Assembly: GCA_947646735.1 (NCBI GenBank)
Contig: CANTFK010000877.1
Span: 124,001 to 188,000 of the forward strand
Direction of reading: 5' to 3'
Length of the DNA stretch: 64,000 bases
From: Peronospora farinosa
Taxonomy: Eukaryota > Oomycota > Peronosporomycetes > Peronosporales > Peronosporaceae
Below the pieces are notes generated by a model. The model did no database searches, was not told where the DNA came from, and saw nothing but the letters and a program-made list of their open reading frames with translations. Of the stretch, positions 967 to 59,800 are shown piece after piece; the stretch's first letter is position 1, and the number at the start of each line of letters is the position of its first letter. Position numbers and translations under genes: made by a program.

Positions 967-969
967 TCC

Positions 970-1698: not shown

Positions 1699-1717
1699 TC
1701 CTAGATCAACTGGAGGG

Positions 1718-18519: not shown

Positions 18520-18719
18520 TCCGATAACACTTCTTGATCGTTCAATACAATTCCATTTTGTTTCTCCTTTTCGTTACAATTGTCTTCTTTTGTTGGGCTT
18601 CTTTAGCCGCGATCCAGTTTTCCAGACCTTCGATCGCCATACTCATTACACACAAATTTCCTTTCCACCATCCTATGCAACCTTCTTGCATATTATACCA
18701 TCCCAACACTTGATCTCCG

Positions 18720-20855: not shown

Positions 20856-20935
20856 ACAATAGCACTATAAGCTCCACCTTTACGTTTTACTCGTGCCGAT
20901 CCATCGAAACTGACGACCAAAAGACTTTCCGTCTT

Positions 20936-22780: not shown

Positions 22781-22816
22781 CTCGCCACTTTCATGATAAT
22801 ATGTTGGACTCTCCAG

Positions 22817-32672: not shown

Positions 32673-32982
32673 CCAATCAGTAGTTAAGTATATATTTAGT
32701 TATAATTAATTAAATATAGCTCAGTCTTCCATTTGCTACACACCGAAGCACCACGCACGAGAAGCTGAAAAGCTTCTACGTGACGTCGGTGTCTTCTTGT
32801 ATTAGAAGTTATTTGCACTCTCGCTCAAGCGAGAGGCAACTGGTGGTACGACTGCTTAAGCAGTATACCAGCCTCCTAACCACCCTCTCACGCGAAGGTA
32901 AGACGGTCTAACCGCTTCCTCGCTTGTGCATCAGGTGTGTGCTAGTAGCACGAGGCAACTTCGTAGAAGTGCCCGTCTACAA
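32366..32982 (+). mobile_element. LTR-like and leader-like fragment of an unassigned element
   Basis: Begins TGTAACAGGG, like the LTR starts of families B and C, and is rich in short inverted repeats (for example GTAACAGGG...GTTAC, ACATTAAGT...ACTTAATGT, ATCTTAAAT...ATTTAAGAT). A segment CTAGTAGCAC at about 32,940 resembles the primer site of C2. It passes into family C RT at about 32,983. No matching partner LTR in the window. Confidence 0.45.
32634..32671. repeat. (TA)n microsatellite
   Basis: 19 uninterrupted TA units inside the LTR-like fragment. Confidence 0.97.
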
Positions 32983-32989
32983 ATGCGAT

Positions 32990-36880: not shown

Positions 36881-36946
36881 CAACAAGTTCTCATTTCCCA
36901 TAGTCACTAAACAGTCTCTAATGTGACTGTTGGTTGGGGGGGGTGA

Positions 36947-37397
36947 TGTAGCGGAGTGAGTTCGTTACATCATATTGACACTTATATGAAGTGTCAATCT
37001 AAGTATCATTGTAACTCATAATATCTGAAAATATTATCGTTTCCTATAATATTGTCCCTCAATCTCCTTGAAGTTGGAGATGCCCTCTAATTGGTTGATA
37101 TGGGTCATTATATCAACCAACGCGCTGACCAATGACCGATGGACGCGCGCAATGAGTGGAGGGCAAGTTTTCAACATACATAGTTGTAGTTTAATATAGT
37201 TAACATAGGTTATAACAGATTAGTTCTCTTAAGATAGTTAACTATATTAGATACAGTTTTCTTCCCCTTCTCAAATAAGCGTTGGTTAGTTGATTGACTT
37301 ACTCTGATAACGTGTACGTAAGGTAATGAGGCACCTGCTTTCACTGTCATCAGAGAAGGTAGACTATACTGTTATCAGTATAGTCGAAAGATTCCCC
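36947..37397 (+). repeat. 3' LTR of C1-right, last bases missing
   Basis: Starts TGTAGCGGAGTGAG after a polypurine run (36,935-36,946) and matches the 460-bp C LTR to its last hairpin; the final CCCCGTTACA is altered to CCCCATG where B2 begins. Confidence 0.88.
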
Positions 37398-37400
37398 ATG

Positions 37401-37717
37401 TGTAATGGGGCAGCCTATCACATAAGTAGTTATAGGATTAATACATAATTACATAAGTAGGCATAGATCAGTATCCGATTAGCGGATACTGCGCGTCATT
37501 TTATTATTGGTTTGTTGGGGTGCCAGACCCAATAATTAGCCAATAATAAATTTAACTTCCATATTGAGTGGTTCCCATGAGCTAGGGAACATATTCGCAC
37601 TTACTGCGAATTAAAACTAAAACAAAAATAAAACAGAGTTATATTTACGAGTTAATTAAGAGCGCTTCCTCAACGCCCTTTTAGTGTAAGACGGTAACGG
37701 GTCCTTAGCCCGTTACA
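37401..37717 (+). repeat. 5' LTR of B2
   Basis: 317 bp, TGTAAT...GTTACA. Resembles the B1 5' LTR at its start. An arm pair AACGGG/CCCGTT sits at the end next to the primer site. Confidence 0.92.
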
Positions 37718-37719
37718 CC

Positions 37720-37736
37720 TGGTAGCACTTTGTAGT
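37720..37736 (+). other. Primer binding site of B2
   Basis: TGGTAGCACTTTGTAGT, two bases after the 5' LTR. It begins with TGG and is shared with families C (one mismatch) and D. Confidence 0.65.
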
Positions 37737-37742
37737 CCTTTA

Positions 37743-38782
37743 ATGACTAGATTCGAGATGAACATGGGCGAGCCATCGGTGGCTCCAGCGGTCTCGCTGG
37801 AGCGTTCTGATTTCCACATCTCACCTCGGTGGAGTGGCAGGCACTACATCGCCTCGCGGCGGTGTCTGGTGAAACTATTGTGACGTCGCTGCTGAGCACA
37901 GCGACGCCTGATGATCAACGTGCCGCCATCCAAGACTTTATGGTGCGCGAGCTCGCCGAAGCGAATCGGCGAGTATTGACTCCCTCGCGCACTTCGCACC
38001 ATGACGCTATCAAGATGGAGACGTCAACGTACTCCGGTGATGGTCCGGATCGTCTCCCCCTCAATCGCTGGTTTCGCGAGGTGGATATTGCAATAGCGTC
38101 AAGATTAATTGACGCTCCGACGGCCAAGGTCAATTTCCTGTTGTCTCGTCTTGCTGGCCTAGCCAAGGAATGGGCTCTCGGAAAGCTCGTCGTAGATGAG
38201 TCGGCGTTTCCTACGATGTTCGATATCCAGCGTGACTTACGACTGGCTTTCGAGCCTCCTCAAGGTGAATCTCGCTTGCGTGCAGATTTCTTCTTACTCC
38301 GATAGGGCAAGCTGTCGATGCGTGACTACGTGCAGAAGACACGTCATCTTGCTTCGTGCATTACCACGCAGCCAATTGACATGGCTTCACAAGTCCATGT
38401 CTTTATTTTTGGCATGCAAGAGGGCATGACGCGTTACTGCCTCACACGTGCTGAGCCAAAGTCCCTCAAGGAGGCATTTGCCCTCGCGCTTCGTGAGGAT
38501 TACACTGTCGCGTCGTCGTACCTGCACGCAGCGTCACAACATTTCCGGACGTCTGGCCCAGAGCCAATGGAAATTGATGCAATTGAGTCCTCTCGTGGTC
38601 GCGACAAATCATTAAGCCGCGACATTCGCAATCATAACACGATGAAGTGTTTTCGCTGTGGTAAAACAGGCCATCGTGCGGCTGTCTGTCGTGCACCTTC
38701 GCCGGTGACTATGAACACAACTGTCTCACGAGGAGACGCTGTGTTGTCGGTGGTCCCGCCAAAAAACGAGCGGTTCCAGTAG
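37743..38782 (+). pseudogene. gag: Family B gag (B2), frameshift and internal stop
   Basis: Starts at Met 37743, as in B1. A one-base loss near 37,812 breaks the first 25 codons from the rest. The capsid region (37,829-38,302) is open, then TAG at 38303-38305 (TAA in B1), then open again in the same frame to 38782. The second part ends in a zinc knuckle C-F-R-C-G-K-T-G-H-x4-C (about 38,650). The gag stop lies in the frameshift hairpin. Confidence 0.85.
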
Positions 38783-38801
38783 GCGTGGGGCGCCCTACTG
38801 G
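38761..38801 (+). promoter_or_regulatory. -1 ribosomal frameshift cassette, B2 gag-pro
   Basis: A AAA AAC at 38761-38767, in the zero frame. The gag TAG is at 38780-38782, inside the hairpin with arms CCAGTAGG (38776-38783) and CCTACTGG (38794-38801). The -1 frame is open from the heptamer into protease. In the -1 frame the hairpin encodes Pro-Val-Gly-Val-Gly-Arg-Pro-Thr-Gly, close to the D and C versions. Confidence 0.78.
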
Positions 38802-40476
38802 CAGAAATGGAGCCCCGAGCACTCAGGTGGCAGCTCGGGCTCCTAGCCCCAAAGTGATTCATACCCACTTCAATGCCACCACCATGCGCGATGATTCGAG
38901 ACTTATTATTATCAGTCTCATCGTCGCTGGAGTGAAGCGACCACTTCGAGCGTTGTTAGATTCTGGCGCTTCCAACAACTTCTTTCGTACATCCTGTTTG
39001 TCCCTTCTCCCGTCGACTGTCACGGTTCGAGAAGGTCCAGGTGACATCGTTGTCAAACTTGCCGATGGACAACCAGAACGTGTCCCGCGTAAAACAGTGG
39101 TTTTACCGTACACTTTCGACGGTTTCCAGAGCAACGACGAATTTTTGGTGTACGAGATGAACTATGCATTTGATTGCATACTTGGGATACCGTGGCTGTC
39201 ACGGTATCAGCCGAAGATAGATTGGCTATCTCGGTCCGTCAAACGACGAAGCGGTTATGACGTCAGTGAAGTGTTTACTCATTTGTTGTCGCTTCATCCG
39301 ATTGGCCTCACGTCAGGGTCGTGAACGAACTCGCCACGACTAGTAGTCAACACGGAGAGAGCTATGGCGCTCTGTGCGCAGTATGTTCCGTTACACTGAC
39401 GGAGCCACAGAACGAAGCGGTCGAACAGCGGTTCCCGCATACACAGACATCGGTCGAACAGGGGTTCCCGATGCACAACGAGGCGGTCGAACAGCGATTC
39501 CCGCACACACAGACATCGGTCGAACAGGGGTTCCCGATGCACAACGAGGCGGTCGAACAGCGATTCCCGCACACACAGACATCGGTCGAACAGGGGTTCC
39601 CGATTCACAGCGAGGCGGTTGAACAGCGGTTCCCGCACACACAGACATCGGTCGAACAGGGGTTCCCGATTCACAGCGGGGCGGTTGAACAGCGGTTCCC
39701 GCACACACAGACATCGGTCGAACAGAGGCTCCCGATAAATATCGAGGCGGTCGAGCAGGGGCTCCCGCAAACAAATGAAGCGGTCGAAGGCGAGCTCCCG
39801 CTTTTGATTGACGAGAATGGGCGGACTATGGATCCGCATGAGACCGACGTGGTGGAGCGACGTCTAGAGGGGGGGTATATCTTCCTCTTGTGATAGCGAC
39901 GTGCCAGTCTCGAGCAGGGGCTCGAGACGCAAAAGAAAACGCAAGAAAGGAGCACGCCGATCATCAAGACGACGAAATTCACGTCAAAAAGCTGATGCAT
40001 TTGATCCCGTAGTGACGGAATCCGTATGCGCGCTTGAATATGTGAAGGGATCTTCATATCGTGGCTGCTACATTGAGGTAGCGAGTCCACCGTGCACTGC
40101 TGCAGAGATCACATCTCTGTCAGACCTTTTATGGAAAGACTTCCTTCATGACCTCAAGGCCGGCGACATCGAGCAAGTGTGCATCGTTTCAGCCACCGAA
40201 GCAGCCAGTGAAGAAGTTCTGGAGGCTCGCCCGAAGAGCGCCGAGCCTAAATCAGCGCGCGAAGAACGCTTCGCGACACAGTCTTGGGATGCTCTTCGTG
40301 CTTCGGGCAACCCTGTATACGATGTCGCCCGTGAGTACGCCGATATTTCCCGGAGAAAATTCCAGCTGAGCTTCGGCGGATCGTGGTGTGCGGCACGAGA
40401 TAGATCTCGTGCCAGGATCGAAATATTGCGTGACACGGCAGTGGCCGTTACCGCGCGACCAAGTCATCGCTATTGA
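38768..40476 (+). pseudogene. pro: Family B protease and repeat linker (B2)
   Basis: The protease in the -1 frame of gag has active site Asp-Ser-Gly-Ala-Ser (about 38,957) and I-L-G-I-P-W (about 39,180), and is open to 39,324. A small frame change then leads into the linker (39,321-39,893), made of 22-residue repeats, and a second change into the basic R-K-R-K-R-K-K region (39,901-40,476). The end approaches RT but is out of frame with it. Confidence 0.82.
39411..39800 (+). repeat. 66-bp tandem repeats in the family B linker (B2)
   Basis: Units start for example at 39,481 and 39,547, exactly 66 bp apart; about six copies. Each encodes 22 residues with the core Glu-Gln-x-Phe-Pro twice. Confidence 0.9.
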
Positions 40477-40551
40477 TGAATTTTCGAGGGTCGCCGCAAG
40501 GCTGGCCATGTCCGCGAGAGTATCTCGCCACATTCGAGTCCGACTTTCTGT

Positions 40552-42172
40552 GTGAAGAAATCCACCGGCGGTTGGCGCATTGTGCACGCCTTCAACAAGC
40601 TGAATGACGCCACGATCCCGGCTCAAACGCCTATCCCTCGTAAAGACATGGTATTGAACACCATGTCCGGAAGCGAGATCTACAGTGCCATCGATCTGAC
40701 AGCCGGTTTCTATCAGATCCTCATGAGGGACAGTGACATTCCGTTCACTGCGGTCAGCACCCCAAGCGGGATGCTTTGAGAGTGGCTGGTCATGCCACAA
40801 GGTCTTAAGAATGCTTCAGCCACGTTCAATCGGATGGTGACACAAGTACTTCGCCCACTTCGCGACTTTGCACCGAGCTATTTTGACGACATTTTCGTTC
40901 ACAGCCGCGCTGAGCAAAAACTCAGCGCTACGGAGGTACACCTTCGTCACTTGAAGCAGGTGTTTCAAGTTATGCGCGAGAATAAATTGTATGCGAATTT
41001 GAAGAAATGTGTCTTCTGCGCTCCTGAGATTCCAGTACTCGGTTGCTACGTCAGCAAGGAAGGTGTCCGCGCTGATCCTGAGAAGATCTCATCGATCTGT
41101 TCCTGGCCAACGCCCAGGAAACAAAAATGAATTACGTCAATGGCTCGTTCTCACGAATCATTTGCATAAGTATACGAAGAACTATGCTGAGCTTAGTCAG
41201 CCATTATTGACTTTGCTCAAGAAAGATGCAGTATGGTTATGGACGGCAGAACATCAATCTGCCTTCGACTCCGTAAAGAAGAGCTTGTCCGAGGCACCGG
41301 TAATGATGTTACCTGATGACTCTAAGCCATTTCACGTCGTATGTGACGCGAGCAATTTCGCTATACGATGTGCCCTCATGCAATTTGATGACGAGGGTCG
41401 AGAAGGCGTCGTGAGATTTCAATCACGACAGATAAAACCTGCCGAGAAAAGTTATCCGGTACACGACAAGGAACCTTTGGCTATGCGCTACGCGCTAATC
41501 AAGTTTAGAGTATATTTGCTCGGCGAAAAGATGTTTTCTATCTACACATATCACGCATCATTGCGTACCGCCGTCAAGAGTCCTCACTTGTCCCAGCGTA
41601 TGGCACGGTGGTTGTCATTTTTTGCCGAGTATAATTTTGTGGTGCATTACAAGCCTGACAAGAACAACATTCTCGCTGACGCGCTTTCTCGTCGTCCTGA
41701 TTACGATCCTCGGCGCGATATGGGTCATCAAACGGAGTATGTTGATGACGACGAAGATATCTGTGTGTGTTGTATTGAGCTGGGGCTCAATGCGATGATT
41801 TCGACCCCTGTGCTTTCGATCCGAACTCAGATCGCTGAATCCTACGCGAATGATTCCTTCTATGCAGGAATCATCAACTATATCAGGGACCCGAGCGAAC
41901 AATTACTCGCGAAGTTGACGAAACCAACACGCGACAACATCAAGCGTTACGCGCTTGACGGTCCGCTGCTGACGTACACGATAGACGTCTTTGATTCCCC
42001 GCGTGTCGTCATCCCTGCTGATGACGACCTTCGAGCCCGATTGGTTCATGAATTTCACGACAGCCCAGATGGCGGACACCTGGGTCGCGAGAAGACGTTT
42101 GCGGCTATTTCTCGCGTATTTTTCTGGCCGCGAATGTATAAGTACATCCAGAAATGGGTGCGCTCCTGTTAA
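40552..42172 (+). pseudogene. Family B reverse transcriptase and RNase H (B2)
   Basis: The RT fingers are open to a TGA at 40777-40779 (Trp codon in relatives). The palm motif [10 protein letters not shown] is at about 40,877-40,906. RNase H begins with a frame change near 41,130 and then stays open, with D-A-S-N-F-A-I (Asp kept), H-D-K-E and D-A-L-S-R-R. The frame continues into the integrase zinc domain and ends at a TAA at 42,170 (a Glu codon in B1). Confidence 0.85.
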
Positions 42173-43508
42173 ACCTGTCAGCGTGTGAAGCCCGCGCCAT
42201 CCTCAGAAGCCCCATTGCGTCCTCTTCCGATTGCTATGGAAGCCTGGCGCTCGGTCAGCATGAATTTTATCTTTGGCCTTCCACCGGATGAACAGAAACG
42301 CACGGGCGTATTGGTTCTAGTGAATCGATTCAGCAAAATGGTGCATTTTGCTCCGGTCTCCGCCAACATTACGGCGGAGACGAAAGCGAAGATCTTCATT
42401 GATCTTATCTTTAGGCATCACGGCTTGCCAGAATCTATTGTTTCGGACCGTGACCCGCTTTTCACTTCGGCTTTCTGGGCCGAATTCTTCCAGCTATTAG
42501 GCACGCGGTTGCTTATGTCTAAGGCGGCCCATCCAGAGACGGATGGGCAAACGGAGCGTGTGAACAGAGTGCTCGAAGATGTCTTGCGCAGTTATGCAAC
42601 ATCGTTCTCATCATGGAGTTGCATTTCTTCCACTTGCAGAGTTTGCAATCAACAATGCTGTCCACGCGTCAACCGGGTTGACGCCCTTTTTCGTTAACAA
42701 CGCGAGGCATCCTCGCGTTCCGGCGCTGCTTGCTCTCTCAGCTTCAGAACACCCTGTCTCCAAGCTTGGTGGGGGAGTATCTACGGATGGAATTGCGCCG
42801 AAACTATTGCTGAGTGATTACGATGCGAATGAGGTTGCTGCCGATGCACCTACTACTGGTTATTTTGTGGCCAACGGCATCTCGACTCCTGACGCGATGC
42901 TTTCCATCGCGTCTTTCGTTGCCAATTTTGCTCCAAAAGAGAATACGTCGCCTGTAAGTTCGGCTGCAGTAACCGAATTTCTGCTATTGCGACAAGGAAT
43001 CACGCGTTTTGTGCGTGATGCATTACAAGAGGCAGTCGATAAGCAAAAGGAGAATGGAGACAGAAGAGGTCGAAAGAATATGTCGCTTTTTCGAGAAGGT
43101 GACAGAGTATTGTTATCAACAAGTGGATTACCAAACACCTCAGTGACAAATTTGGGCGCTAATAAGTTAGCGCCAAGATGTATTGGCCTATTTCGGGTGG
43201 TTAAGGTGCATGGTGACGCTTACACGCTAGACATACATACATCTCTGCGTTTGCACCCGACGTTCTATGTCAGGCGCCTCAAGGCTTACCTACCGGCGGG
43301 TCTCTCTTTGAATCTTCCCCGCTCTTCTGTTCCGGCTCGAAATCCGACATCCCTTGACGACGACGCTGAATACGACTGGGACCAAGTCCTGCCCGAACGC
43401 GTGCAGACTCGATCTGCTGGGGCCCTCCGAACGCAGTCATCTCAAGTTGACGTAGGCGCTCAACCAGTACCAGCTGCTCACGTCGAGTCCGCTCAGCAGC
43501 CTCAGTAG
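42173..43508 (+). pseudogene. Family B integrase core and C-terminal part (B2)
   Basis: Core open 42,185-42,697, then a frameshift near 42,620 into 42,579-43,508. The first catalytic position is Asn (AAT 42,263-42,265); the second Asp (S-D-R-D-P) and the Glu (Q-T-E-R-V-N-R) are kept. The C-terminal part has the usual G-D-R-V-L-L-S and the Y-x-V-R-R-L-K-A-Y-L segments found before chromodomains. Identical loss of the catalytic Asp in B1 and B2 suggests a shared defective ancestor. Confidence 0.85.
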
Positions 43509-44685
43509 CAGCATCCGCACGATCTTGAGCTCTCTCAGCCATCTCGCAAGCATCAAGTAGGGCATTCTTCGACTCCTCAGCTTCAGCGCGGAGTAGGCGC
43601 AGCTCATCATTCGACTGTACAGGCGCCCGATTACGAGAATCGGCGCTCATCGCCAGAGGCCTTCCGTCGTGATGCTCCTCCTCCATTAGTCGATGCATCG
43701 GGTGCGCGACGCTGGATTGTCGACCGTATTGTCGATCACGAGGATCACAAGTCCCAGGCGCCGAGTAATAACTCGGCGCCCATGAAGAAGCGTGTCGAGA
43801 AACATTACAGGGTTCGCTGGTTGGGATATTCCCCGGCGGACGATACATGGGAGCCATCGAGTACGCTGTCCCAAGATGTCCCGGACGTGGTCGAGGACTA
43901 CGAGTCCCGTAGAAAGACGGTGATCGCGACCGACGCTGACGGTTCCATCCCCGATCTCGCGAGCCGTAATGCTCGCGAGCAACGAAACCGCGACGACCTC
44001 CCGAGCGACTCCGAGACCGAGACCTATTACGAGGCTCGGGAGCATATGGATGATACGGTTGACGATCTCGACTACGTGAATGCTGTCGGCGATCGTAAGG
44101 ACGCGCTCTCACTCGCCGTAGCTCGTACACCTGTAGCTCCGAAAGGCTTTATTCATAACGGGCAATCCATGGACGAATATGATCGGGCATGCCTCGCGCA
44201 CACACCAAGTCGTCCCATTCCTGCCGGACCGGTCGCGATCTGCCCACGTTGCACGTTGGACATCCCTCACGAATGTGGACGTAACAAAGGTTATACTCGT
44301 CACAAGTCATACGACAGATGCGCCGGCGCAGGTCGTCAATAGCGTGTCTATCACGCGTTCCCTCGCGACCGTCTAACCAGGACGTGAAGGACGTTCCTTC
44401 ACGTCGATGCGCGTTCCAGCGTCTGATGAAGTCACACCAAGACCTCTGCAACGCATCGTCGGTATATGCGTTGTTCGTCGCCTTTCCTCTCACTGTACGG
44501 TATCGCGTGAAAAGGTCCTTCATGACCTCCAGTGGCTCGGGTTCGACAGCACCTTCAAGACCATACAAGCGCCACGGCTTCAAGTCCCCATCCATGACCT
44601 GCGTCGCCTGCTCTCTACGGATTGTCGCTTGGCGTTCCCAGTTCTGGTTGTCAGAGACATTGTTTCGTGGGAGCCTAGGGTCCAT
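43279..44685 (-). pseudogene. Antisense frame of family B (aORF), B2 copy, one internal stop
   Basis: About 468 codons in one frame, from Met 44685 to 43279, interrupted only by a TAA at 44149-44151 where B1 has an Arg codon. Order: a Trp/Arg-rich domain of about 150 residues containing S-W-C-D-F-I-R-R-W-N and a Cys-rich patch, an Arg-Ser dipeptide-rich stretch (about 44,010-44,080), then a coiled coil (about 43,640-43,480). It starts 114 bp from the 3' LTR and overlaps the chromodomain. B1 has its own private stops at other codons, so the ancestor was open. Function unknown. Confidence 0.58.
43600..44342 (+). pseudogene. Family B chromodomain end (B2)
   Basis: Chromodomain at about 43,790-43,910: H-Y-R-V-R-W-L-G-Y-S and D-D-T-W-E-P. 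The tail contains a C-P-R-C ... H-E-C cluster. A TAG at 43,506-43,508 separates it from integrase. The whole segment lies opposite the aORF. Confidence 0.72.
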
Positions 44686-44784
44686 GCTGCTCAGTTAAGT
44701 CTAACTGAGCAGGTTCGGAGGTACGCCGTTGATCGAGAAGAAACTTTCTGCGATTCGCGCTTACGTTTAGGTAAGCGCAACATC

Positions 44785-44799
44785 AGAGAGGGGGGGTGA
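44785..44799 (+). other. Polypurine tract of B2
   Basis: AGAGAGGGGGGGTGA directly before the 3' LTR, same as in B1. Confidence 0.82.
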
Positions 44800-45118
44800 T
44801 GTAAAGGGGCAACCTATTACATAAGTAGATATAGGGATAATACATAATTACATAAGTAGGCATAGGGCAGTATCCGATTAGCGGATACTGCGCGTCATTT
44901 TATTATTGGTTTATTATTGGGGTGCCAGACCCAATAATTAGCCAATAATAAATTGACTTCCATATTGAGTGGTTCCCATGAGCTAGGGAACATATTCGCA
45001 CTTACTGCGAATTAAAACTAAAACAAAAATAAAACAGAGTTATATTTACGAGTTAATTAAGAGCGCTTCCTCAACGCCCTTTTAGTGTAAGACGGTAACG
45101 GGTCCTTAGCCCGTTACA
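44800..45118 (+). repeat. 3' LTR of B2
   Basis: 319 bp, TGTAAA...GTTACA. Its U3 end matches the B1 3' LTR. The last 60% is the same as in its own 5' LTR. Confidence 0.92.
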
Positions 45119-46684: not shown

Positions 46685-47870
46685 ATGGAATCAGCGGGTG
46701 ATGAACGTCATCACGCAACGCGTGATGATTTCCACCATTTGAGTGACCTCGAATGGAATGCGGTTCAGCGTATGGCTGAAACCATCGGCAACCCTGCCGT
46801 TGGTGCCATGTTGCTCTCTCTTAGCGGAGACGACCAACATGCAACCATCGCCAAGTATCATACAACATGAACTTGACGAAGTTGTAAAGAAACTCACCTT
46901 GCTAGAGGAGCAAGGTTCTCAACAGGTTGAACTGTTGAGAGAACAAGGCGCTCAACAAGCTGACTTGTTGATGCAGCAGGGTGCTCAACAGTCTGAACTG
47001 TTGAGACAACAGCAGGCTAGTGCTGTTGCTGCCGGGTCGACGTGTATACGTCGACCCGAGTCCTTGAAGATTGATGTCTCCAAGTACAAGGCAGTCGAAA
47101 GTGACTCCTTGTTGAGATGGTTCGTCGAGCTCGACGATGCCATTGAGGCTCGTCGCATCGATGACGATGCGATGAAGGTCAAGTTCGCCATGTCAAACTT
47201 GGCAGGACGTGCCAAAGCTTGGGCCTTAGGGCTCAAACTGCACGACCCATACGTTTTCCCAACGTATGACGTCTTCAAGGCGCGGCTCAAACACACGTTT
47301 GAACCGCCTCGCGCCGAATTCAGGGCTCGGGCTGAGCTCCTGGATTTGAAACAGGGTAAGCGTGATATACACGCTTACGCCCAACACGTACGATACCTCG
47401 TTAGCTGTATCGTACTGAACCCAATCGATGAACACACGCAGGTTACTGTGTTCATCAAGGGTCTGACAGATGGTCCTGTCAAGACCCACCTGTTCCGCTT
47501 GGAGCTAGAATCGCTGGATCAAGCGATCTCTGCAGCGGAACAGGAGGACTTTAGCCTGCAACAGGCTCACGTCCACTCGGGGTCCTATCGTCCACCGAGA
47601 CGACAGGAGGGCGGAGGTCCAGAACCAATGGACCTCTCCTATGTAGAGAGCGAGCGACCTCGCTCTCCAGGGTACAAGCGATTGCAAAAGTGCAATCGCT
47701 GTCAGAAGTTGGGCCACTACGCTTATGAGTGTAGTGCCCCACGCCCAGTGTCTCGTAACACTGGGAGTGACGATCGACCGTCTGCCAAGAAGGGCCAGAG
47801 ACGTGGGTCCCACGTTGCTGCGAAATCGCAACAACGTGGTGGACCATCAAAAAACGGTCGGGGTCAGTAG
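46685..47870 (+). pseudogene. gag: Family C gag (C2), one frameshift
   Basis: Starts at Met 46685 and continues to about 46,850, where the frame shifts by one base; it is then open to the TAG at 47868-47870. After the shift comes a striking Gln/Glu/Leu coiled-coil with repeated E-Q-G-A/S-Q-Q units (about 46,900-47,010), then the Gag core (W-F-V-E-L-D-D, L-A-G-R-A-K-A-W-A-L, F-E-P-P), then P-M-D-L-S-Y and the zinc knuckle C-N-R-C-Q-K-L-G-H-x4-C (about 47,695). Apart from the shift, this is the best-kept C gag. Confidence 0.85.
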
Positions 47871-47888
47871 GGGCGGAGCGCCCTACTG
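47849..47888 (+). promoter_or_regulatory. -1 ribosomal frameshift cassette, C2 gag-pro
   Basis: Slippery heptamer A AAA AAC at 47849-47855 in the gag frame, 12 bases, then the gag TAG (47868-47870). The TAG lies in the 5' arm of a hairpin with arms CAGTAGGG (47865-47872) and CCCTACTG (47881-47888), extended by two inner C-G pairs around a bulged G. Protease continues in the -1 frame without a stop from the heptamer. Zero-frame readthrough would stop at a TGA 17 codons later, so -1 shifting is the consistent reading. Confidence 0.8.
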
Positions 47889-48577
47889 ATCCAGCAACGT
47901 CAAGAGAGTTCGCGGGACTCTTGACGAAGGTTGCTCCCAACACACAGTCACTGTGTGTTGCCGCTCCCAGTGATGAGGTATCCCTCATCACATTGAAGAT
48001 CGAAGTGACAAAGAACATGTCACTTTGCGCCCTAGTTGATTGTGGGGCTTCGAACAACTTTGTTCGACGCCAATCGCTAGATGATCGTAGGCTCAAATAT
48101 GTTGAGCGCGAGACCCCTCCAACGAGGATGACGGTGCGCCTTGCAACTGGCGCATCCGTAACAGTAAAGAAACGTGTAGTGGGAATTCACTACACGCTTG
48201 AAGGCAAAAAGTACGATGATGATTTCATCGTACTTGATCTGGATGACAAATTTGATGTCATCCTAGGATTACCATGGCTCAGTAGGTACGAGCCATGGGT
48301 CAGCTGGCAGCATCGAACCGTGAAGATGCCTGCCGCTTGTTCATCAGATGGCCATCTGATGAATGTCTTGGAGCGTTCACAAGCGTGTGAATGTACTACG
48401 AGTGAGTGTGATGGCCTCACTTGTGGTCCGGTCGTTAGTACGACTGCACAAGAACTCAGCGTGACAGACAGTCACGCTGTGGAGCAAGCTGCCGGCGGCT
48501 GTGCACAAGCACAGGCAGCGCCGAAGGTCAACCACTCGAATAAGTCGAGTGGACCGGGACATGAATGCTCTCCTTGA
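47856..48577 (+). CDS. pro: Family C retropepsin-like protease (C2)
   Basis: Expressed, if at all, as a Gag-Pro fusion through the -1 shift; no convincing own start codon (first possible is a TTG at 47921). The active site is Asp-Cys-Gly-Ala-Ser-Asn-Asn (about 48,037-48,057), with Cys where Ser/Thr is usual. The flap region follows and then V-I-L-G-L-P-W (about 48,255), the paired structural motif. The Thr/Ser/Cys-rich tail ends at a TGA (48,575-48,577) before the linker, where the polyprotein should continue; a frame change nearby is likely. Confidence 0.72.
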
Positions 48578-48649
48578 GGGCAGCATTTACCGAAGAGTAA
48601 ACCGGTTGCCCAGAAGCGGCAACACGGTAATCCTAGATCAACTGGAGAG

Positions 48650-50074
48650 TTGATCTTAGAGGATCTCGCTGTGGTTGCGCCACCACAGCTAGAGGAAGTC
48701 GATGGAACAGGTTCCATCGAGCCTGCGGGAATAAGTCCCCAGGAAATAATCACTGAGGGAATAAGTCTTCAGTGCCCTGAGGGAATAAGTCCCCAGGAAG
48801 TAACCGAGAATGTGAACGTTTTGCTTAATGACGAATTAATCGTAGGCGCTTATACGCTTGATCTGATCGCGCCTCCGAAGTTAACTTCGGAGAAAACTCA
48901 GTTGCCTACGCTAGAACCTAAAAGGTTCTTGCGTGATCTGCGTAGTCGCAAAGTCAAGCAGATCTGTGTGCTCATCGCAGAGGACGAGTACATGACTGAC
49001 ATTCGGTCAGCAACAGTTTTTGCCGAGAACGAACGGGTTCTCAGCAGCTCATCAATGGACGAAAGTGTCCTTGATGAGAAGACTCGGATTGAACGATATA
49101 CATCGCAATCCTGGGAGTCGCTGAAGACAAATCCTTTGTATAAGGATTTGGTCAAATTCAAGGATGTATTCCCTGAATCCGTTCCGTGCGAGTTGCCTAA
49201 GGGTAAAGGTACTCGACACGAGATCGACCAAGTTCCTGGCACAAAATATTGTGTCATGAAGCAGTGGCCACTGCCTCGGGAACAGGTCGAGGCGATCGAC
49301 AAGTTCTTTGCCGATCGCCTAGCAGCGGGCCATGTGAGGGAGTCAACTTCACCTCACAGCTCTCCGACCTTCTGTGTGCGCAAGGCCACAGGAGGGTGGC
49401 GGATAGTGCACGCGTTCAATAAGTTGAACGCTGCAACGATACCGGCGCAAACGCCGATACCGAGAAAGGACGTAATCATAGATGGTATGTCTAAGAGTAC
49501 CATCTTTTCGTCCATGGATCTGATGGATGGCTTCTATCAGATCCTAATGCGTGAACGGGACATCCCGTACACAGCAGTGAGCACTCCCAGTGGTATGCTC
49601 TGGGAATGGTTGGTGATGCCGCAAGGGCTTAGTAATGCACCAGACACATTCAATAGATGTGTTTCACATCTATTGAGACCGGTGCGCGAATTCGCACCGA
49701 GTTACTTCGATGATGTGTTCGTCCATAGTCGGGCTATGGACGGGAAAACAGACGTGGAAGTCCATAGACTCCACGTCCGTAAGGTTCTTACACTTATGCG
49801 AGAGCATAAGTTGTACGCCAACCCCAAGAAGTGTATATTCGCAGCTAGCGAAATACCACTTCTTGGGTGCATCGTCGGAAAGAACGGCGTACGCCCTGAT
49901 CCAGAAAAGATCAAGGCGATCACCGACTGGCCAGTGCCAGTCGATGTCAAGGGACTAAGGAAGTTCCTTGGGCTAGCGGCGTACTTGCACAAGTACTCGC
50001 GCAAATACGCCGAAATGACAGTACATCTCTCTTGTTTACTCAAGAAAAAATGTAAAGTGGAACTGGAACGCTGA
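48650..50074 (+). pseudogene. Family C linker and reverse transcriptase (C2)
   Basis: 474 open codons. The linker has three Gly-Ile-Ser-x-Gln/Glu repeats (residues about 24-50). RT: G-T-R-H-E-I-D-Q-V-P-G (about 190), [38 protein letters not shown], and palm Y-F-D-D-V-F-V-H-S-R (about residue 350). Near the end, six As in place of five (about 50,047) shift the frame just before RNase H; C1-right has five. The catalytic RT core itself is complete. Confidence 0.85.
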
Positions 50075-50600
50075 TTGTCAGCGTTCCTTTGAACGTATCA
50101 AGCAAAGCTTGATGCAATCGCCAGTATTGGCGATTGCCGATCAAGACAGACCATTATATGTGGTCGGTGACGCCAGTGATTTTGCAATCGGCTGCGCATT
50201 GATGCAATATGATACAGACGGCGCCGAGCGTGTCGTCTGTTATCAATCGCGTCAGCTGCAACCGGCTGAGCGCAATTACCTGGTGCATGACAAGGAACTC
50301 CTTGCCATGAAGTATGCACTGGCTAAGTTTCGCGTCTATCTCTTAGGAGATAGACCGTTCATTGTATATACAGACCATGCGTCACTACGCACGGCTGTAA
50401 ATAGTCCACACCTCTCGCAACGAATGGCGAGATGGTTGTCATTCTTCGCGGAGTACAACTTCTCCGTGGAGTATAAGCCGGGACGACTTAACGTCGTCGC
50501 CGATGCCCTCTCACGTCGGCCTGACCTAGAGCCGACTGTGCAATCCGACAGTGATGTGAACACCACTGTCGCCACGCTGAGTACCAGCGTCTTGTCGTAG
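50075..50600 (+). pseudogene. Family C RNase H (C2)
   Basis: Open after the one-base shift. It carries [14 protein letters not shown] (catalytic Asp), [10 protein letters not shown] (Glu region), [10 protein letters not shown], and V-A-D-A-L-S-R-R-P. It ends at the TAG 50598-50600, which C1-right also has at the same codon, so this stop predates the two copies. Confidence 0.85.
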
Positions 50601-52164
50601 AGTTTACTCGACGACATTAGAAGGGCATGCGCACAAGATAATGATCTTGTACGCCTGTTGGAGAACCTTAAGGACCCATCCACGCAAGCTAAGAAGCGCT
50701 TGCCTGCCATGTATCGATCTTCTCTAGATCGATATACCCAGCGGGACGGCTTACTGTACTACACAGCCGTCAACAACGACACGCCTCGTGTCGTTGTACC
50801 GCACACAACATGATCTCAGGTTACGGATCATGTTTGAATGTCACGATGCACCAATAAGTGGGCATCGCGGCCGTGAGAAAACTTACCTCACGTTCAGTCG
50901 CGACTTTTACTGGCCACGCCAGTATAAGTTCTTGCGCAAGTACGTGCGTGCTTGCGAGGTGTGTCAACGAGTGAAGCCTAGTCCTTCACTCCGTGCACCA
51001 TTGCAGCCTCTACCTGTTCCGGCAGAGTGCTGGGAGTCCGTATCAATGGACTTCGTCTTTGGGTTTCCCAAAGACGCTCACGGGAATAATGGTATTCTCG
51101 TGTTTGTAGACAGGTTCAGCAAGATGGTACATCTTGTTGCTGTACCTAAATCGATCACAGCAGAGGGCTGTGCTCGAGTGTTTATCGATACAATCTTTTA
51201 ATTGCACGGTTTAACCCGTGAACTTGTGTTCGATAGGGACCCCCGGCTCACGGCTGAGTTTTGGCGTTCCGTGTTCCAAACACTTGGAACACGGCTCACA
51301 ATGTCTACTTCTGACCATCCAGAAACCGATAGTCAGACTGAACGCGCCAATCGCGTCCTCGAAGAGATTCTTCGAGGGTACGTCCACTCGTTTACGAGTT
51401 GGAGTGAGTTCTTGTCGATGGTCGAATTCGCCATCAACAACTCCGTGCATGCGTCTACGACGCATACACCGTTCTACGTGAATGGCCTTCGCCATCCACG
51501 TGTCCCCACCTTAGTAGAAGGTGACTCTAATTCAAGGGGGGGAGGAACTCGCTCGAGCGAGAACCAATCTGGCTCTTGCTCATCACGCGACGACGTTATG
51601 GTTGACGCGAAAGTACTCGAAGTCGTACCATTCGACTTCGGTGAAGAAGAAGAAAGTAAGAGCAATGACGTTCTTACTTATGATGATGCTGACGACGTCA
51701 GCATCGTTCGAGGTATCACTATCGAGAACAGTAATGTTCTCACTGAATTAGTAACCGATATCTCTGCAGTGCATTCACAATGCACTGCAGCCAAAAGCAA
51801 CGAGTCAGCTGAGGATTTCCTGCTGACTCGTGAAGCGGTAGTCCGTTTCGTGCAAGACTTTATCGCAGAAGCGGTGGACAAGAAAAAACGAAACGCAGAT
51901 AATAATGGGAGGAAAAATGCTCCTATATTTATTGAAGGTGATTTAGTTTTACTTTCAACAGTAAACCTACCTAAACTTGTAATGACTAACGTGGGCATCA
52001 ATAAATTGTTGCCCAAGTACATCGGCCCGTTTCGTGTATTGCGCCGCCTAGGCAACGCATACACGATCGAGTTGCCACGCAGGATGCGTACGCATCCTGT
52101 GTGGCAACGTGGGAAACCTTCGTCTGTACGTTCAGTACGCGGCTTCTTCGAACGACGAAGATAG
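50601..52164 (+). pseudogene. Family C integrase (C2)
   Basis: Zinc domain H-D-A-P-I-S-G-H-R-G-R-E-K ... C-E-V-C-Q-R at about 50,840-50,970. The catalytic residues are complete: S-M-D-F (51,049), F-D-R-D-P-R-L (about 51,233) and Q-T-E-R-A-N-R (about 51,335), with a Gly-to-Ser change in the usual T-D-G-Q-T-E. A one-base insertion near 50,803 breaks the frame before the zinc domain, and the TAA at 51199-51201, shared with C1-right, splits the core. The C-terminal part has G-D-L-V-L-L-S and the P-K-Y-I-G-P-F-R-V segment. Confidence 0.85.
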
Positions 52165-53865
52165 CCATTACTCTCAAGAATCCCCTTCATATTCTTGTTG
52201 TCACGAACCAGATTCGATATCTGGTCGTGTAGAGATGAGATCTTCCCATGATATTGGACGATCTCCTGACGAGCTGTCGCCATCTCGTTACTCAGAGAAT
52301 GAAGTCGCCGCTCGTTCTCCAATAGTGCGACAGCATTGTTCGCCCGAGACCTCTCATGGTCAAACCCAAGCTGTCGCACAATGTCCTCTAAGCGGCGACG
52401 CTTATCCCGTTCGTGATCAACATCACAACGGAGCTCACGAGTTACACGGGCAAACCCGTCTAACTCAGCAGCCAAGTCCGATGAAAGAATCGGACAGGGT
52501 TTTTCCTCCACCACCGCATCCGCTGGTGGACTCCCATGGTGGGAAGCGCTTCCTCGTGGAACGCTTACTAAAGCACCGCGAGGTGAAGGGACGTCGGACG
52601 AGTTATCTCGTTCGGTGGCGTGGCTATCCGCCTTCGGCGGATATCTGGGAACCTCGGGCCCAACTGATGGCCGACGTTCCCGGCCTTGTCGAACAGTACG
52701 ACAAGGGGCACCCGATGGTGAAGGACCATCGGAAAACGAGCGCCCGGCGCGTTCGTAAAGGGATTGCAAAGTAGCAATCCCTTCACGCATCTCAGAAGAG
52801 ATGCGAGCCCTCCACCAGGGCTCAGTAAGGAGGTACGCCTCCTTCGGCGCTCTTGATGAGGTGCTCAGGCACCCCGGGCATGGGTCGCCCCAAGAGAGGC
52901 ATAACAGGCCTGCCTCTCTAGATAACCGGTGCAAACGATATGCATGCACCGGAAGTACTTCGTTTCTCAAACTTATTGCGGCTAGCATAAAGGCTTTGAA
53001 ACCAAGCCTCTTTCCCAACGTTTAAAACGTTAGTGATAAACGCGTTCCAAGATTGGAGGAACGCGTCGGCCTCACGCTTCTTGTGTGGGCCATACCATCG
53101 ATGTTCAAGGAACACATCGATGTAATAATCGTTCTCAGTGCGAAAGTTCTTCGCACTGGCGTCAAGGCCGTGAAGCTTTGACGCATCAAACAACGGTATG
53201 GGGAACCGTTCGTTGGTCTTTCCAGACCAACGATCAAGCAGATGCTTAGGTAGCATCCATGGCTTGCGATCAGGAGCAAGACGCAATACGTTGCGGTCTA
53301 AAGCCTCCTGCGTGGTGTCAACAGAAGTACCGACACCACGAGCATTAGTGTCAACAGAAGTACCGACACTATGATCATTGATGTCAGTAGAAGCACTGAC
53401 ATCACCCTTACGGTCCCCACCCGAGTCACTATCCTTCGACTCGTTTGGCGAGTCGTCTGATTCATCAGACGACCCGAACATTTCACGGTACATTGATTCA
53501 CTCAATGTACCACGATCCCTCTTCGTAGCATTAGACGACGAGGTATCACCCCGGGGAGAGCCCGGGAGTGGAATAGGTGACTTTGAGCCGGATGCGTGAT
53601 CCGACTCACCAGAGTAGTCAACGACTAACTCTGGGTCAACATCTTCACGTGGCGAAGCGCTACGTGAACCTGCAACAGGCGTTGCAGGCTGATGTTGACT
53701 TCCAGCAGACACATTAGTGTCTGCTGGCTGAGGCTGTGAAGCCTCAGTAGCGGCTGCACACAGGCGTGCAGCCGAGCTCTTGGCTGCCTTAGCAGCGACG
53801 CGCATTGACTTTGTCATAGCGTAATTGTTGAATGAAAGAAAATTCAACAAGTTCTCATTTCCCAT
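51678..53865 (-). pseudogene. Antisense frame of family C (aORF), C2 copy, one-base shift
   Basis: Two long open segments: Met 53865 (the frame also opens 27 codons upstream, into the LTR) to 52,918, and 53,018 to 51,678. They are in adjacent frames and overlap; C1-right lacks one base at about 52,945 and reads straight through. Together about 700 codons: Ala/Ser-rich start, acidic Ser/Asp region (about 53,640-53,380), a Trp-rich domain with L-Q-S-W-N-A-F-I and E-A-W-F-Q-S-L, a Pro/Arg/Ser region, and a long coiled coil (about 52,430-52,190). The start is 47 bp from the 3' LTR. No known family recognised. Confidence 0.55.
52109..52774 (+). pseudogene. Family C chromodomain end (C2)
   Basis: Chromodomain at 52,540-52,710: K-R-F-L-V-E-R-L-L, then Y-L-V-R-W-R-G-Y-P-P, then D-I-W-E-P-R. 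Upstream is Pro/Ser-rich sequence in a different frame from integrase. The whole region lies opposite the coiled-coil half of the aORF. Confidence 0.72.
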
Positions 53866-54830: not shown

Positions 54831-55468
54831 TGTAGCGGAGCTGCACAGCTCTTTAGCCAGAGGAAGACTTTCGGCTGGAAGCCTCTTAGTTCGAGAGAAC
54901 TAAATAGAGTTAAGGCTAAAAGCCACTTAGTTCTAAGGAACTAATTAAACGACTGAAAGTAACCCTGTTCTAAGGAACTAGGAGAGAGACTTTAGTCAGT
55001 CAAGCAATAAGCTTAAGGTTCAGAGAACCAACGCACAGGGTGCAAGAACAAGCTAGAAGCTTAGAGGTTCAGAGAACCAACGCACGAAGTGCACAAGAGA
55101 ACAAGTCAGAACGACTTGTGATCTTAAACTCAAAAGGAGAACTGATTTTATTTATGCTTTAAGATTTTATGAATAGTCCTACTCTAAGTACACTACACTA
55201 GATTAATTACTATAATAGTAATTATTATATGCAGACTTTGCTATTGGACGACGTATCGTCTAAACATCTGTGTATGATGTACTTAGTACAGCGTTATCGA
55301 TTATCGAATCCTAATCGATAAGATACGGTATTACCGAATACCGTATCTCAACGCTTATACTTAATACCTCTCTAAAGAGAAGTATCATAATGCATTATAT
55401 GCAATACAAGGGGAGTTTAACCGTAAACTCCCGGAAAGACGCTACAACCGTCGTGTAACCCCGTTACA
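54831..55468 (-). repeat. 3' LTR of D2
   Basis: 638 bp, plus-strand ends TGTAGCGGAG and CCCCGTTACA. Rich in short inverted repeats, for example GATACGGTATT/AATACCGTATC and repeated GGTTCagaGAACC. No difference from the 5' LTR noticed. Confidence 0.95.
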
Positions 55469-55483
55469 CCCTCCCCCACCAGA
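55469..55483 (-). other. Polypurine tract of D2
   Basis: On the minus strand TCTGGTGGGGGAGGG lies directly before the 3' LTR. It is shorter and less pure than the B and C tracts. Confidence 0.65.
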
Positions 55484-55579
55484 CTGACGTTCCCATAGAA
55501 TGTCACTCGACATTTTTCCTCTTAGAGGTAGTGCTTTAGCGAACGCTTAAAACCTCACGGTTTGTTCACGGCACACAAC

Positions 55580-56863
55580 ATGACGCCTCCCGGCAGTGAG
55601 TCACAGACTCTTAGGGACCTCATTGAGGACGACCTTGAAGAAGCGGTTGATTACGAAAGTGACACCGTCTTTGTGGGACCCGATGGGTCCCCTTTAGCCA
55701 CCCTCACGGGTGAAGATGACACTCGTCATGCACCGAATCCGTTCCCTGAACGTGGTGCAGCAGATGCGCTAACAGCGTTACGTGACCCGCCTGAGGTATC
55801 ATCAACGGTAACGGTTACCAACCCACTCGACGAGCAGCAACAGCGGTCCATCGACCAAGAGGAAGGCGCCAAGCGCCGAACGAAGAACATGACGCGGCTG
55901 AAGGATCACCGACAGTACAGGTTCAAGCCACCTACGGTGGAAGAACGCCTAAAGGAAGCATCTGGGCATTCCCTTTCTGGTTGGACCATTGGGCCTGAGG
56001 CCATTTCGCCTGAGGATGTTGCCACACGCACGGCACTTCGACAACGATATCTGGAGCCCCATATCACTACTCAAAGCCAATACTTGGCACGCCTTAATAG
56101 GCAAGTGCGCGGTGCGCCAGTTCCTCCGATGAAGGGTGTTCCCATCCTTCTGTTCGCGGGGGAAACCGAGGACGAAGAAGACACGGCTTTCAGCCGCTGG
56201 GCGCATTATGCGCGACGTTTAAGCAGCATGTGGGCCCTACGGGCAAGCGCCGATGTGGCAGATATCCGACTTGAGCGGAAGATGCGTTATGATTACGCTA
56301 AATTGAAGGCCCGGGGAAAATTGAAATCCCAACGAACGCATTATGCGCCTGCTGCCCAGCAGCCCAATGTTTCGGCTACCCCTGTAGCCGCGAGTTCACG
56401 ACAGCCCGAGGCCGCTAACCCGCCTACCCTCACCATTACTGGTGAGAAGCGTCAGCGCCAACAGGCAGACCCTGCGCACGACGCTCAAAAACGTCCACGG
56501 CGTATGGGCAGTCCTGCCGAAGGGGAGTCTCAAACTCCCATGAATTCCATGATTCGGGATAACCCCGCCATTTCACCAGATACTGGTTTTGACCATGGCG
56601 GCGACGCTTCTGCAGTAGACGTTCCACATGGAACTGCAGGTTCCCCTGAGCATCGAGCAAAGGAGGAGGAGGCCGGTGTATCGGCACAAGCTCATGCCGA
56701 GCTTGTTCAGGAGGTGCGGACCCTTCGTGAGGAGAGGCAGACGATGAACTCCCGGCTGGAGTCCCTGGAAGAGAGTCGGACCCGAATGCAGGGTCAACTT
56801 GACTTGTTGGTGCAGATGCTCCGTCCCGCGACAATGCCAATGGGCCCGGCGCGAGCGCCTTAG
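55580..56863 (+). CDS. Antisense gene of family D (aORF), intact
   Basis: An intact 427-codon frame on the strand opposite to gag-pol, from Met 55580 (112 bp from the 3' LTR) to TAG 56863; an in-frame TTG at 55562 is less likely. Acidic N-terminus (about 1-60), central Arg/Trp-rich domain (about 100-255: R-W-A-H-Y-A-R-R-L near 212), a basic K-R-P-R-R patch (about 310) that could be nuclear-targeting, and a C-terminal coiled coil (about 375-415). Its last 428 bp overlap the end of pol, giving convergent, mutually antisense 3' ends. No known family recognised. Similar frames occur in families A, B and C. It would need a promoter reading out of, or near, the 3' LTR. Confidence 0.65.
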
Positions 56864-59800
56864 CGTCTATTTGGGACGGATCCCGATAAGGTTTTAGCAT
56901 GGCGACATAGAACACAGGATGTGTACGCAATTTGCGCGGCAAGTTAAGCGTATACGCTGTGCCTTTCTTGGCAATGACCTTAAAGGGTCCGATAAAGCGC
57001 GGACGCAACTTCGTCTTAAAGACAGCGGATACTACATTGGTAGGTAGGTTTTTAGCATTAAGTAATACTTGGTCTCCGACCTCATAATCATTAATACAAC
57101 CTCTGCCTTTCGCATCTGCATATTCCTTTTGTTTATCTTGACTATCAGCCATTGCATCTTGCACATGTCGTAAGACATTTAGTCGCGTTGCGAGAAACGC
57201 ATTTACCTGTTTCTTAACAGTATTAGGGCTGACATCAGCAAGCCGATCGGCAACCTCTCCCCCACCAAGCCCTGAACCACTCGGTGGTAGCGTTAACGGA
57301 ACGCGTGGGTGTGTGAGACCATTGACATAGAACGGAGTGTAGCCGGTGGAGGCGTGCACGGAATTATTGAGTGCAAACTCAACTACAGGGAGCATAGAGC
57401 TCCAACGCTTAGGCGTTTCAGCACAAACGCTGCGTAGGATATCTTCAACAACGCGATTTACGCGTTCGGTTTGACCATCGGTCTGCGGATGATCCGCCGT
57501 GGACATGTCCAAACGGGTGCCCAGCACCTGGAAGACGGACTTCCAAAATTTACTCGTAAAACGAGGATCACGATCAGAAACAATTGCCACTGGCAAGCCA
57601 TGTTGGCGAAACACCCGATCGATAAACAGCTCCGCTGTACCCACACCATCGATCGAATCTGGCACAGCCGCTAAGTGAGCCATCTTGCTCAAACGGTCAA
57701 CAAAGACCACAATACCTGTATTGCCATGCGAATCTTTCGGTAGGCCAAATACAAAGTCCATACTAATGGACTCCCAGCACCCAGTGGGAATAGGCAAACT
57801 AGCCAGCGGCGCTGCCGAATGGGGCGAGGGTTTCACCCGCTGACACATTTCACACGTACGCACATATGTGCTCACCCATTTGTATAATTTGGGCCACCAA
57901 TAACTTTGGCATACTGCCCCATAGGTCTTTTCACGACCCAAATGACCACCGATGGCGGTGTCATGTACCTCATAGAGGATACGATGCTTCAGGTCCTCGT
58001 CATGAGGAACTACAATACGCGGAGGATCCGCCACATCTGTACGATAGTACAACAGCCCCTCATCGATAGAATATCGATGGAGGCTTGCACGCAATCGTGC
58101 CGACAATTTAATGTCCGAGTCTTTAAACTCCTCACTGCCAAGAGCATGTAGCAACGCTATACAGTGATCATCTTTAGCATACGCCGTACGAATGAGATCG
58201 GTGATAGAAGACGACAACATCGTCACATGAGCAAGCTCATAATCAGGTCTGCGTGACAACGCATCAGCCAAAGCATTTTGCTTGCCCGGCTTATATTTCA
58301 CCTCGAAGTTATATTCGGCAAAGAATGACAGCCATCTGGCCATTCTCTGCGAGAGATGCGGCGACTGAGTCGCAGTGCGTAACGACGCATGATCGGTATA
58401 GATCACAAAAGGCTTTGAGCCCAGCAGATGAACTCTGAATTTGACCAGGGCATACTTCATCGCAAGTAGCTCTTTGTCGTGAACTGGATAGTTCTTTTCT
58501 GCAGCTTTCAGCTGGCGAGATTCAAAAGCGATTACACGCTCACGGCCTTCATCATCTGATTGTAACAGAGCACTGCCAATGGCAAAATCCGATGCGTCAC
58601 AGACGACGCTAAACGGTCGGTCAGGGTCTGGCAAAGCCAAAATAGGAGCATGTAGAAGGCTTGCCTTCACTGCTTGAAAAGCATTTTCGTGTTCGGCATG
58701 CCAACACCATTCCACATCCTTTTTAAGGAGATTGGATAACGGCCGAGCCATATCAGCGTAATTTTCGCTATACTTGTGTAAGTAATTGGCAAGGCCAAGC
58801 CATTTACGCAAGTCCTTCTGAGATTGTGGAACAGGCCAATCGACTATGGCTTTGACTTTGGCGGGATCCGCTCGTAGTCCTCGCTTCCCAATGAAGCACC
58901 CTAGAAAGGGAATTTCTTCGGCCCCGAAGATGCACTTAGATGCATTAGCATATAATTTATTAGTGCGCATGCACTCGAGCACTGCTCGTAAATGAACAAT
59001 ATGGTTCTCAATATCTGACCGACCATGTTCAGCTCGGCTATGGACAAAAATGTCATCAAAATACGTCTGTGCATAACTTCGATGGGGTCGAAACAATTGC
59101 GTCACCAAACGGTTAAACGTAGCCGGAGCATTAGATAGCCCTTGGGGCATCACTAACCACTCCCAGAGCATACCGCTCGGAGTACTAACAGCAGTAAGCG
59201 GAATATCACTAGCTCGCATGAGCAATTGGTAATAACCATCGACTAAGTCGAGCGCACTGTACATGGTACAACCGACCATATTGTTCTGAAGAACATCCTT
59301 TCTAGGTATCGGTGTCTGTGCAGGTATAGTGGCCGCATTGAGCTTATTATAAGCATGAACAATACGCCATTTACCATTTGGTTTCTTAACACAGAAAGTG
59401 GGTGTCGAGTGCGGAGATTTACTTTCACGCACCATGCCCGCCGCGTGCTTTGCACGAAAGAACTCGTCAATGACGTCACACTGTTCTTTGGGTAAAGGCC
59501 ACTGCCGTGTTACACAGTATTTGGTTCCGGGAACCAAGTCAATTTCATGACGTACGCCCCTATCAGGTGGTAGAACCGACGGTGGATCGTGACACACCAC
59601 GTCCTGGAATTCTTTTACCAAAGGATAGTAGGGATCTGAAGGGTCCTTTAGAATAGATGCCCCACTACGTGCACTTAGTGCCGCTTTGGTATCTTCAAGG
59701 ACTGTCTCATCGACAAGCGAGGATGAGTTCAGCTCGAGGTTAGGTCGAATGACCACCATATCGGACAGAGCACCTGCCTTCAAGGCCTGATGAAATTCAT

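Follow-up and report, generated by a model that had tools for sequence, protein, structure and literature searches.

Short perfect inverted repeats tile a family of Ty3/gypsy retrotransposons in the oomycete Peronospora farinosa

In a 64,000-nucleotide stretch of the Peronospora farinosa assembly GCA_947646735.1 (contig CANTFK010000877.1, positions 124,001 to 188,000; hereafter the window), the long terminal repeat (LTR) retrotransposon C2, at 46178-54371, is tiled from its LTRs through its coding frames with short perfect inverted repeats. Between 46000 and 53500 we counted 87 with arms of at least 8 bp and loops of up to 20 nt, against 1.83 in dinucleotide-shuffled sequence, and 55 with arms of at least 9 bp against 0.37. 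The pattern vanishes under codon shuffling that preserves protein and codon usage, and it depends strongly on the element family.

Inverted repeats along the C2 element

An earlier note on this DNA had listed 15 repeats with arms of 8-11 bp in 47341-48480 and expected fewer than one such pair in random sequence. Our count exceeds it, with 20 repeats and arms of 8-12 bp, and dinucleotide shuffles (n=100, loop up to 20 nt) agree on the expectation, with a mean of 0.24 and a maximum of 2. Six of its seven listed examples were recovered by the count; the other, 47489-47499/47534-47544, with a 34-nt loop enclosing the smaller pair ATCGCT/AGCGAT, was confirmed by eye. The excess over codon-preserving shuffles (200 per frame), which the note had proposed as a check, is present in all four C2 frames compared (Table 1).

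LTRs and internal region are both tiled, at 15.2 and 12.0 repeats per kb, respectively. Within 46178-54373, 27% of the sequence lies in arms of at least 7 bp and 36% in arms of 6 bp or more (loop up to 16 nt). With loops of up to 14 nt, the excess starts at arms of 6 bp (66 vs 20 by chance) and is strongest at 8-12 bp (99 vs 1.7, summed); no C2 stem exceeds 12 bp at this loop length, and extending the loop to 60 nt adds one of 13 bp and one of 15 bp. The commonest loop is 4 nt (25 of 120 stems with arms of at least 8 bp and loops of up to 60 nt), loops of 0-2 nt occur in 10 of the 120, and no GNRA or UNCG loop was recognised by eye among the listed 4-nt loops. Stems show a codon-phase preference of 31:16:7, favouring the phases with free third positions. 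In a test for a stability threshold, under which GC content would rise as stems get shorter, the Spearman correlation was -0.34 including both LTRs and -0.21 (P 0.056) in the internal region. A preference for an outermost C-G pair in the stems of family C was discarded, as it was not repeated in families B or E.

Judged by its sequence, C2 is an oomycete Ty3/gypsy LTR retrotransposon. Its LTRs form a near-identical pair with TG...CA ends, and the pentamers flanking them, TCGCT (46173-46177) and CCGCT (54372-54376), resemble a 5-bp target-site duplication in which a single base differs. Pfam matches give the domain order gag, protease, reverse transcriptase (RT), RNase H and integrase, the last by its zinc-binding domain only. 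In the genome to which the window belongs (46.85 Mb, 274 contigs), the RT region has at least 40 matches at 97-100% identity (40 scored of 1074 candidates). Among the best 120 of 1380 protein matches to the RT, the closest named proteins belong to Peronospora matthiolae, Pythium oligandrum and Peronospora farinosa, three species whose RT proteins match at 79-87%, and the named oomycete matches come from Peronospora, Pythium, Globisporangium and Phytophthora; the Pythium oligandrum protein shows 81% identity over 91% of the frame and the Peronospora farinosa protein 79%, with Phytophthora matches lower, at about 53-71%. The closeness of the Pythium oligandrum RT could reflect horizontal transfer. 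No relatives were confirmed in collections of viral contigs, genome contigs and plasmids.

Table 1. Positions of C2 features, selected hairpins and other elements in the window; repeats have arms of at least 8 bp unless stated
Feature	Position	Strand	Description
5' LTR of C2	46178..46637	+	TGTAACGGGG...CCCCGTTACA; tiled, 13 stems with arms ≥6 bp, 7 with arms ≥8 bp
gag frame	46743..47870	+	Retrotrans_gag; zinc knuckle under the Pfam cut-off; 17 repeats vs 0.84 codon-shuffled
Stretch of the earlier note	47341..50060	+	37 repeats vs 0.72 shuffled (loop ≤20 nt)
Aspartic protease frame	47921..48577	+	RVP_2; 11 repeats vs 0.39 codon-shuffled
Hairpin AAGTACGATGA-tgatt-TCATCGTACTT	48209..48235	+	11-bp arm; outer A-T is G-C in C1; another pair is G-T in C1
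Hairpin CAGCGTGAC-agaca-GTCACGCTG	48457..48479	+	C48460-G48476 is T-A in C1
RT frame	48650..50074	+	RVT_1; 15 repeats vs 0.64 codon-shuffled
Hairpin CGTCCATAG-tcggg-CTATGGACG	49720..49742	+	First arm within the FVHSRA motif; loop tcgag in copy L059
RNase H frame	50109..50600	+	3 repeats vs 0.23 codon-shuffled
Integrase zinc domain, SH3_Tf2-1 and chromodomain frames	50788..52774	+	Pfam matches
3' LTR of C2	53912..54371	+	99.1% identity with the 5' LTR
C1, older fragment	468..2576	+	91% to C2; 12 repeats vs 0.5 shuffled
Inverted family B copy	2582-10350	opposite to B2	About 95% identity with B2
Family D, Ty3-like	16900..22800	-	711-aa frame 18720-20855; no excess
C3, older fragment	32982..37397	+	89% to C2; 28 repeats vs 1.7 shuffled
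B2, family B copy	37401..45118	+	33 repeats vs 1.9 shuffled
Family A	54947..59447	-	1264-aa frame 56436-60230; weak excess

Distribution among families, copies and loci

Families were compared by 200 codon shuffles each, at arms of at least 8 bp and loops of up to 14 nt. Family C, represented by the open pol frame of copy L059, carries 44 repeats against 1.46 (30-fold), family B (L053) 15 against 1.10 (14-fold) and family E (L069) 11 against 0.73 (15-fold), with 7 against 0.47 in E2 (L072). The excess falls to 3 against 0.86 (3.5-fold) in A2 and is absent from D (0 against 0.27). Hairpins are common to family C copies on many contigs. Among 10 arbitrarily placed loci (46 kb in all), L038 has 19 repeats, every one of them inside a 1.77-kb stretch of family C; the neighbouring 3.2 kb, from another element, has none. 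The other nine loci have 0-7 repeats each. Given these loci and the differences between families, a uniform host-wide bias is excluded, although a mild excess occurs in several other stretches.

The C stems lie at positions of their own, which neither B nor E shares. In a codon alignment of pol, with C stems of at least 7 bp and with the L071 rows (broken frame) left out here and in the arm-change comparisons, none of 42 C stems is near-intact in B, E or A, and one is near-intact in the partial E2. Where both members of a pair have changed, pairing is restored in 28 of 84 cases in B and in 31 of 93 cases in E, close to the third expected by chance. Structures conserved between C and B or E were rejected. 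B and E, with 76% identity over 1505 bp, do have a few stems in common: E contains 6 of the 19 B stems, and B contains 3 of the 20 E stems. In the hairpin at 49720-49742, family E has the first arm unchanged, A has it with one base different and B with two, and the second arm differs from all three families and equals the reverse complement of the first (copy L059).

Several observations concern other parts of the window or single hairpins. At 48457, copies L010, L019 and L020 have the loop agacagaca in place of agaca, seemingly through a 4-bp duplication. A mild excess is present at 18001-32000 (15 vs 4.1 at arms of at least 8 bp), partly within other elements, and the spike of inverted repeats at 32-33 kb is due in large part to a (TA)19 run at 32634-32671. 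In front of C3 lies another kind of LTR-like stretch (32368-32981, TGTAACAGGG...CCCGTCTACA), which runs straight into mid-RT sequence and has hairpins of its own, with sequences unlike the ones in the C LTR. Tandem repeats are suggested by self matches at an offset of 66 bp in both family B copies (7957-8354 and 39406-39788) and at an offset of 87 bp in 60046-60561, and overlapping self matches of 1-472 and 15499-16170 suggest a common diverged tandem repeat.

Possible origins of the hairpins

Our preferred explanation, tentative and as yet unproven, is that the hairpins were written at the DNA level by fold-back copying during reverse transcription and filtered by protein selection. Where a growing cDNA strand happens to carry a near-complement of its 3' end a short way back, that end would fold back across a loop of some 4-5 nt, take the preceding sequence of the strand as its template for at most about 12 nt, and then resume on the original template. 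An imperfect palindrome would thus become perfect, since one arm would be replaced by the reverse complement of its partner, as in quasipalindrome correction, and over many element generations under protein selection the element would become tiled. The differences between families might come from their reverse transcriptase, their nucleocapsid or their number of cycles. The tiling, its dependence on family, the sizes of loops and arms, the equal strands and the stem positions unshared between C and B or E are observed directly; reverse transcription as the step involved, and copying instead of selection as the driving force, are what we infer. More speculatively, a clade of LTR retrotransposons may habitually self-copy its cDNA during reverse transcription, a mutational drive that would shape synonymous sites and LTRs element-wide, leave a perfect hairpin at intervals of a few tens of bases as far as the proteins allow, and make palindrome conversion as important as point mutation.

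A rather unlikely alternative is position-agnostic selection on the folding of the element RNA, of the kind described as genome-scale ordered RNA structure (GORS). In 200-nt windows compared with order-shuffled controls (n=38 for C2), C2 folds 32% below the shuffles, and values across family C are 32-33%, above the 7-24% that a study of RNA viruses gives by its own method (PMC7642675). Loops of 4-5 nt, the codon-phase preference and the stem positions unshared between families also speak for this alternative. A plus-strand RNA under such selection may employ G-U pairs and fold more stably than the complementary strand. On the other side, the two strands of C2 fold equally, at -81.0 and -81.5 kcal/mol per 200 nt, with an excess of -25.9/-26.2 in C2 and -28.7/-28.3 in L059, whereas Escherichia coli rRNA prefers its own strand (-64.3 vs -51.7 for the complement; better in 21 of 22 windows; strand difference in excess -3.7 vs +0.1). 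The strand difference was not significant in the RNA phages MS2 and Qbeta (P 0.07 and 0.70), and equal strands therefore do not exclude RNA selection. These phages reach folding excesses of 24% and 23% with just 2.0 and 3.8 perfect repeats per kb (arms of at least 7 bp) against 15.8 in C2, so strong folding does not need perfect short repeats. Conversely, family B shows that such repeats are possible without strong folding: it has 42 (arms of at least 7 bp) against 6.0 expected and a folding excess of only 9% (B2, 5.7 repeats per kb; A2, 10% and 3.5 per kb).

No preference for wobble pairs is seen in C2 either. At C2 stem ends (arms of at least 7 bp), G-T and A-C occur 22 and 28 times among 123 outer positions and 13 times each among 70 inner ones, and single mismatches inside stems are G-T in 7 and A-C in 17 of 41 cases (2 and 9 of 19 in a stricter set). 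The stem-end count has little power, since rRNA likewise lacks a G-T excess (11 each of 65, arms of at least 5 bp). G-T makes up 6% of predicted pairs in C2 against 12% in shuffled sequence (10 vs 13 in MS2), and the GC content of arms is 0.508, against 0.513 outside arms and loops. The equal strands, the absence of a wobble preference, arms that are not GC-richer and the B stems with weak folding lead us to lean towards a cause at the DNA level.

Diversity among copies bears on both explanations. In 30 copies of a 3.9-kb stretch of family C, the density of private variants is alike in common stems (0.158), loops (0.169) and outside (0.156), and that of variants in at least 3 copies is 0.016, 0.055 and 0.031, respectively. 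By Fisher's test the deficit of shared variants has P 0.015 for common stems, which are defined by intactness; for any stem, P is 0.15 against all other positions and 0.044 against loops. Family B shows the same direction, not significantly. The deficit suggests constraint, with stems kept up in active lineages, and favours RNA selection, as do the shared variants in stems of at least 15 copies, which by hand count are G-T in 6 cases, A-C in 2 and other in 3. Against it, C2 stems have changed as fast as the rest relative to the older C3 (0.102 and 0.105).

Less likely again, and in our view improbable, is selection on hairpins or cruciforms in single-stranded cDNA or double-stranded DNA, for example to protect first-strand cDNA. 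We know of no function for such DNA hairpins. It would accommodate equal strands and the lack of plus-strand wobble, and A-C (G-T when read on the minus strand) is in slight excess at the stem ends of C2, B2 and E (outer and inner summed, 196 vs 150 at arms of at least 5 bp); at arms of at least 7 bp, where chance stems are fewer, the lead is small (61 vs 50). The folding excess of the minus strand is larger in E (P 0.048), though not in C2 (P 0.33), nor significantly in B, A or D. Finally, chance, base composition, host-wide mutation or an assembly artefact, to which the mild excess elsewhere and the (TA)19 run might seem to point, has next to no probability and is refuted by the shuffles, by the 30-fold excess in C against none in D within one genome, by the confinement of the L038 repeats to family C sequence and by the recurrence of identical hairpins in copies on many contigs.

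Returning to fold-back copying, its support in the history of the copies comes from one-sided changes. The imbalance of derived changes between the arms of C stems averages 2.21 (38 stems), against 1.64 +- 0.19 in shifted controls, a value reached by 0.3% of shifts. This supports copying in family C only, with no bias in its direction, the two arms being equally changed. The earlier note had offered template-switch palindrome repair among its explanations, next to RNA packaging and resistance to silencing, and the exact pairing and the one-sided C changes fit that idea. Its more general proposal, that selection or a mutational process maintains the hairpins in RNA or DNA, holds in that the pattern is real and family-specific, with selection on RNA folding the less well supported part. 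It had also reported covariation between copies. Both pairs that it found to covary with C1 were confirmed, and the change in the first is, as claimed, an amino-acid change balanced by a silent one (A48209/G, Lys vs Glu; T48235/C, silent Leu; frame 47921-48577, read by eye), yet two re-paired double changes in 34 stems do not exceed chance (null 1.28, P 0.34). Relative to C3, such changes number 7 over 61 stems, where 2.80 are expected (P 0.002). CpG deamination was considered for the double changes, several of which are C:G to T:A in CpG context, and was dropped because CpG is no hot spot here.

A number of results weigh against fold-back copying. Covariation is modest overall, and as proof of RNA structure it was set aside as weak. 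No multi-base conversion of one arm was found among the 30 copies: of 17 rare hairpins, 15 lie one base from the common state, one seems to have been shifted by a loop insertion and the remaining one (L030) is probably in a misaligned stretch. Similarly, none of the 25 stems of L071 or the 31 of L050 is short of at least two of its pairs in L059. B and E show no one-sidedness, which would also be expected under selection with one arm held by the protein, and several of the 18 C stems whose arms differ by at least 3 changes lie in poorly aligned stretches. Derived changes are not enriched in arms in C (232/556 vs 676/1632), nor in B or E. Conserved RT residues are broken no more often in arms (22/86) than elsewhere (91/280; P 0.29), which fits synonymous selection. 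The deficit of shared variants in common stems and the stem ends of C1, which run opposite (G-T 5, A-C 1), belong on the same side.

Comparison with known systems

The nearest described phenomenon is GORS (PMC7642675), which is characterised there by order-dependent folding genome-wide, positions that are not conserved and paired sites that are less variable. Family C resembles it in folding well below shuffles (32%) and in stem positions poorly kept between families; the members of family C do share stem positions. Of plus-strand selection there is no sign in C2, a comparison in which the phages show no significant strand difference and the G-T count is powerless in rRNA. C2 further differs from GORS in the dominance of perfect short stems, in the absence of a wobble or strand preference and in being a retrotransposon tiled through its LTRs. 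If selection were the cause, this would be position-agnostic selection for structure with a folding excess above the RNA-virus values in PMC7642675, by our own measure. Under either reading, neither the hairpin content nor a handful of covarying pairs can, taken alone, serve as evidence of a functional RNA.

In quasipalindrome correction, or short template switching, one arm is copied from the other over a short loop, giving a perfect repeat; such events are known as local and infrequent. C2 shares with it the excess of perfect short-loop inverted repeats and differs in that a whole mobile element would be shaped and that single events were not caught. If copying is the true cause, the element would document, across its whole genome, DNA synthesis that a reverse transcriptase templated on its own product.

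In its LTRs, gag, protease, RT, RNase H, integrase and chromodomain, C2 resembles other oomycete Ty3/gypsy elements (Metaviridae). We know of no report of hairpin tiling in these or any other retrotransposons, within a literature covered only thinly, and its novelty is provisional. Families A and D of the same genome, unlike C, show little or no tiling, and, if copying is the cause, such sister families in one genome would offer a ready comparison for what controls it.

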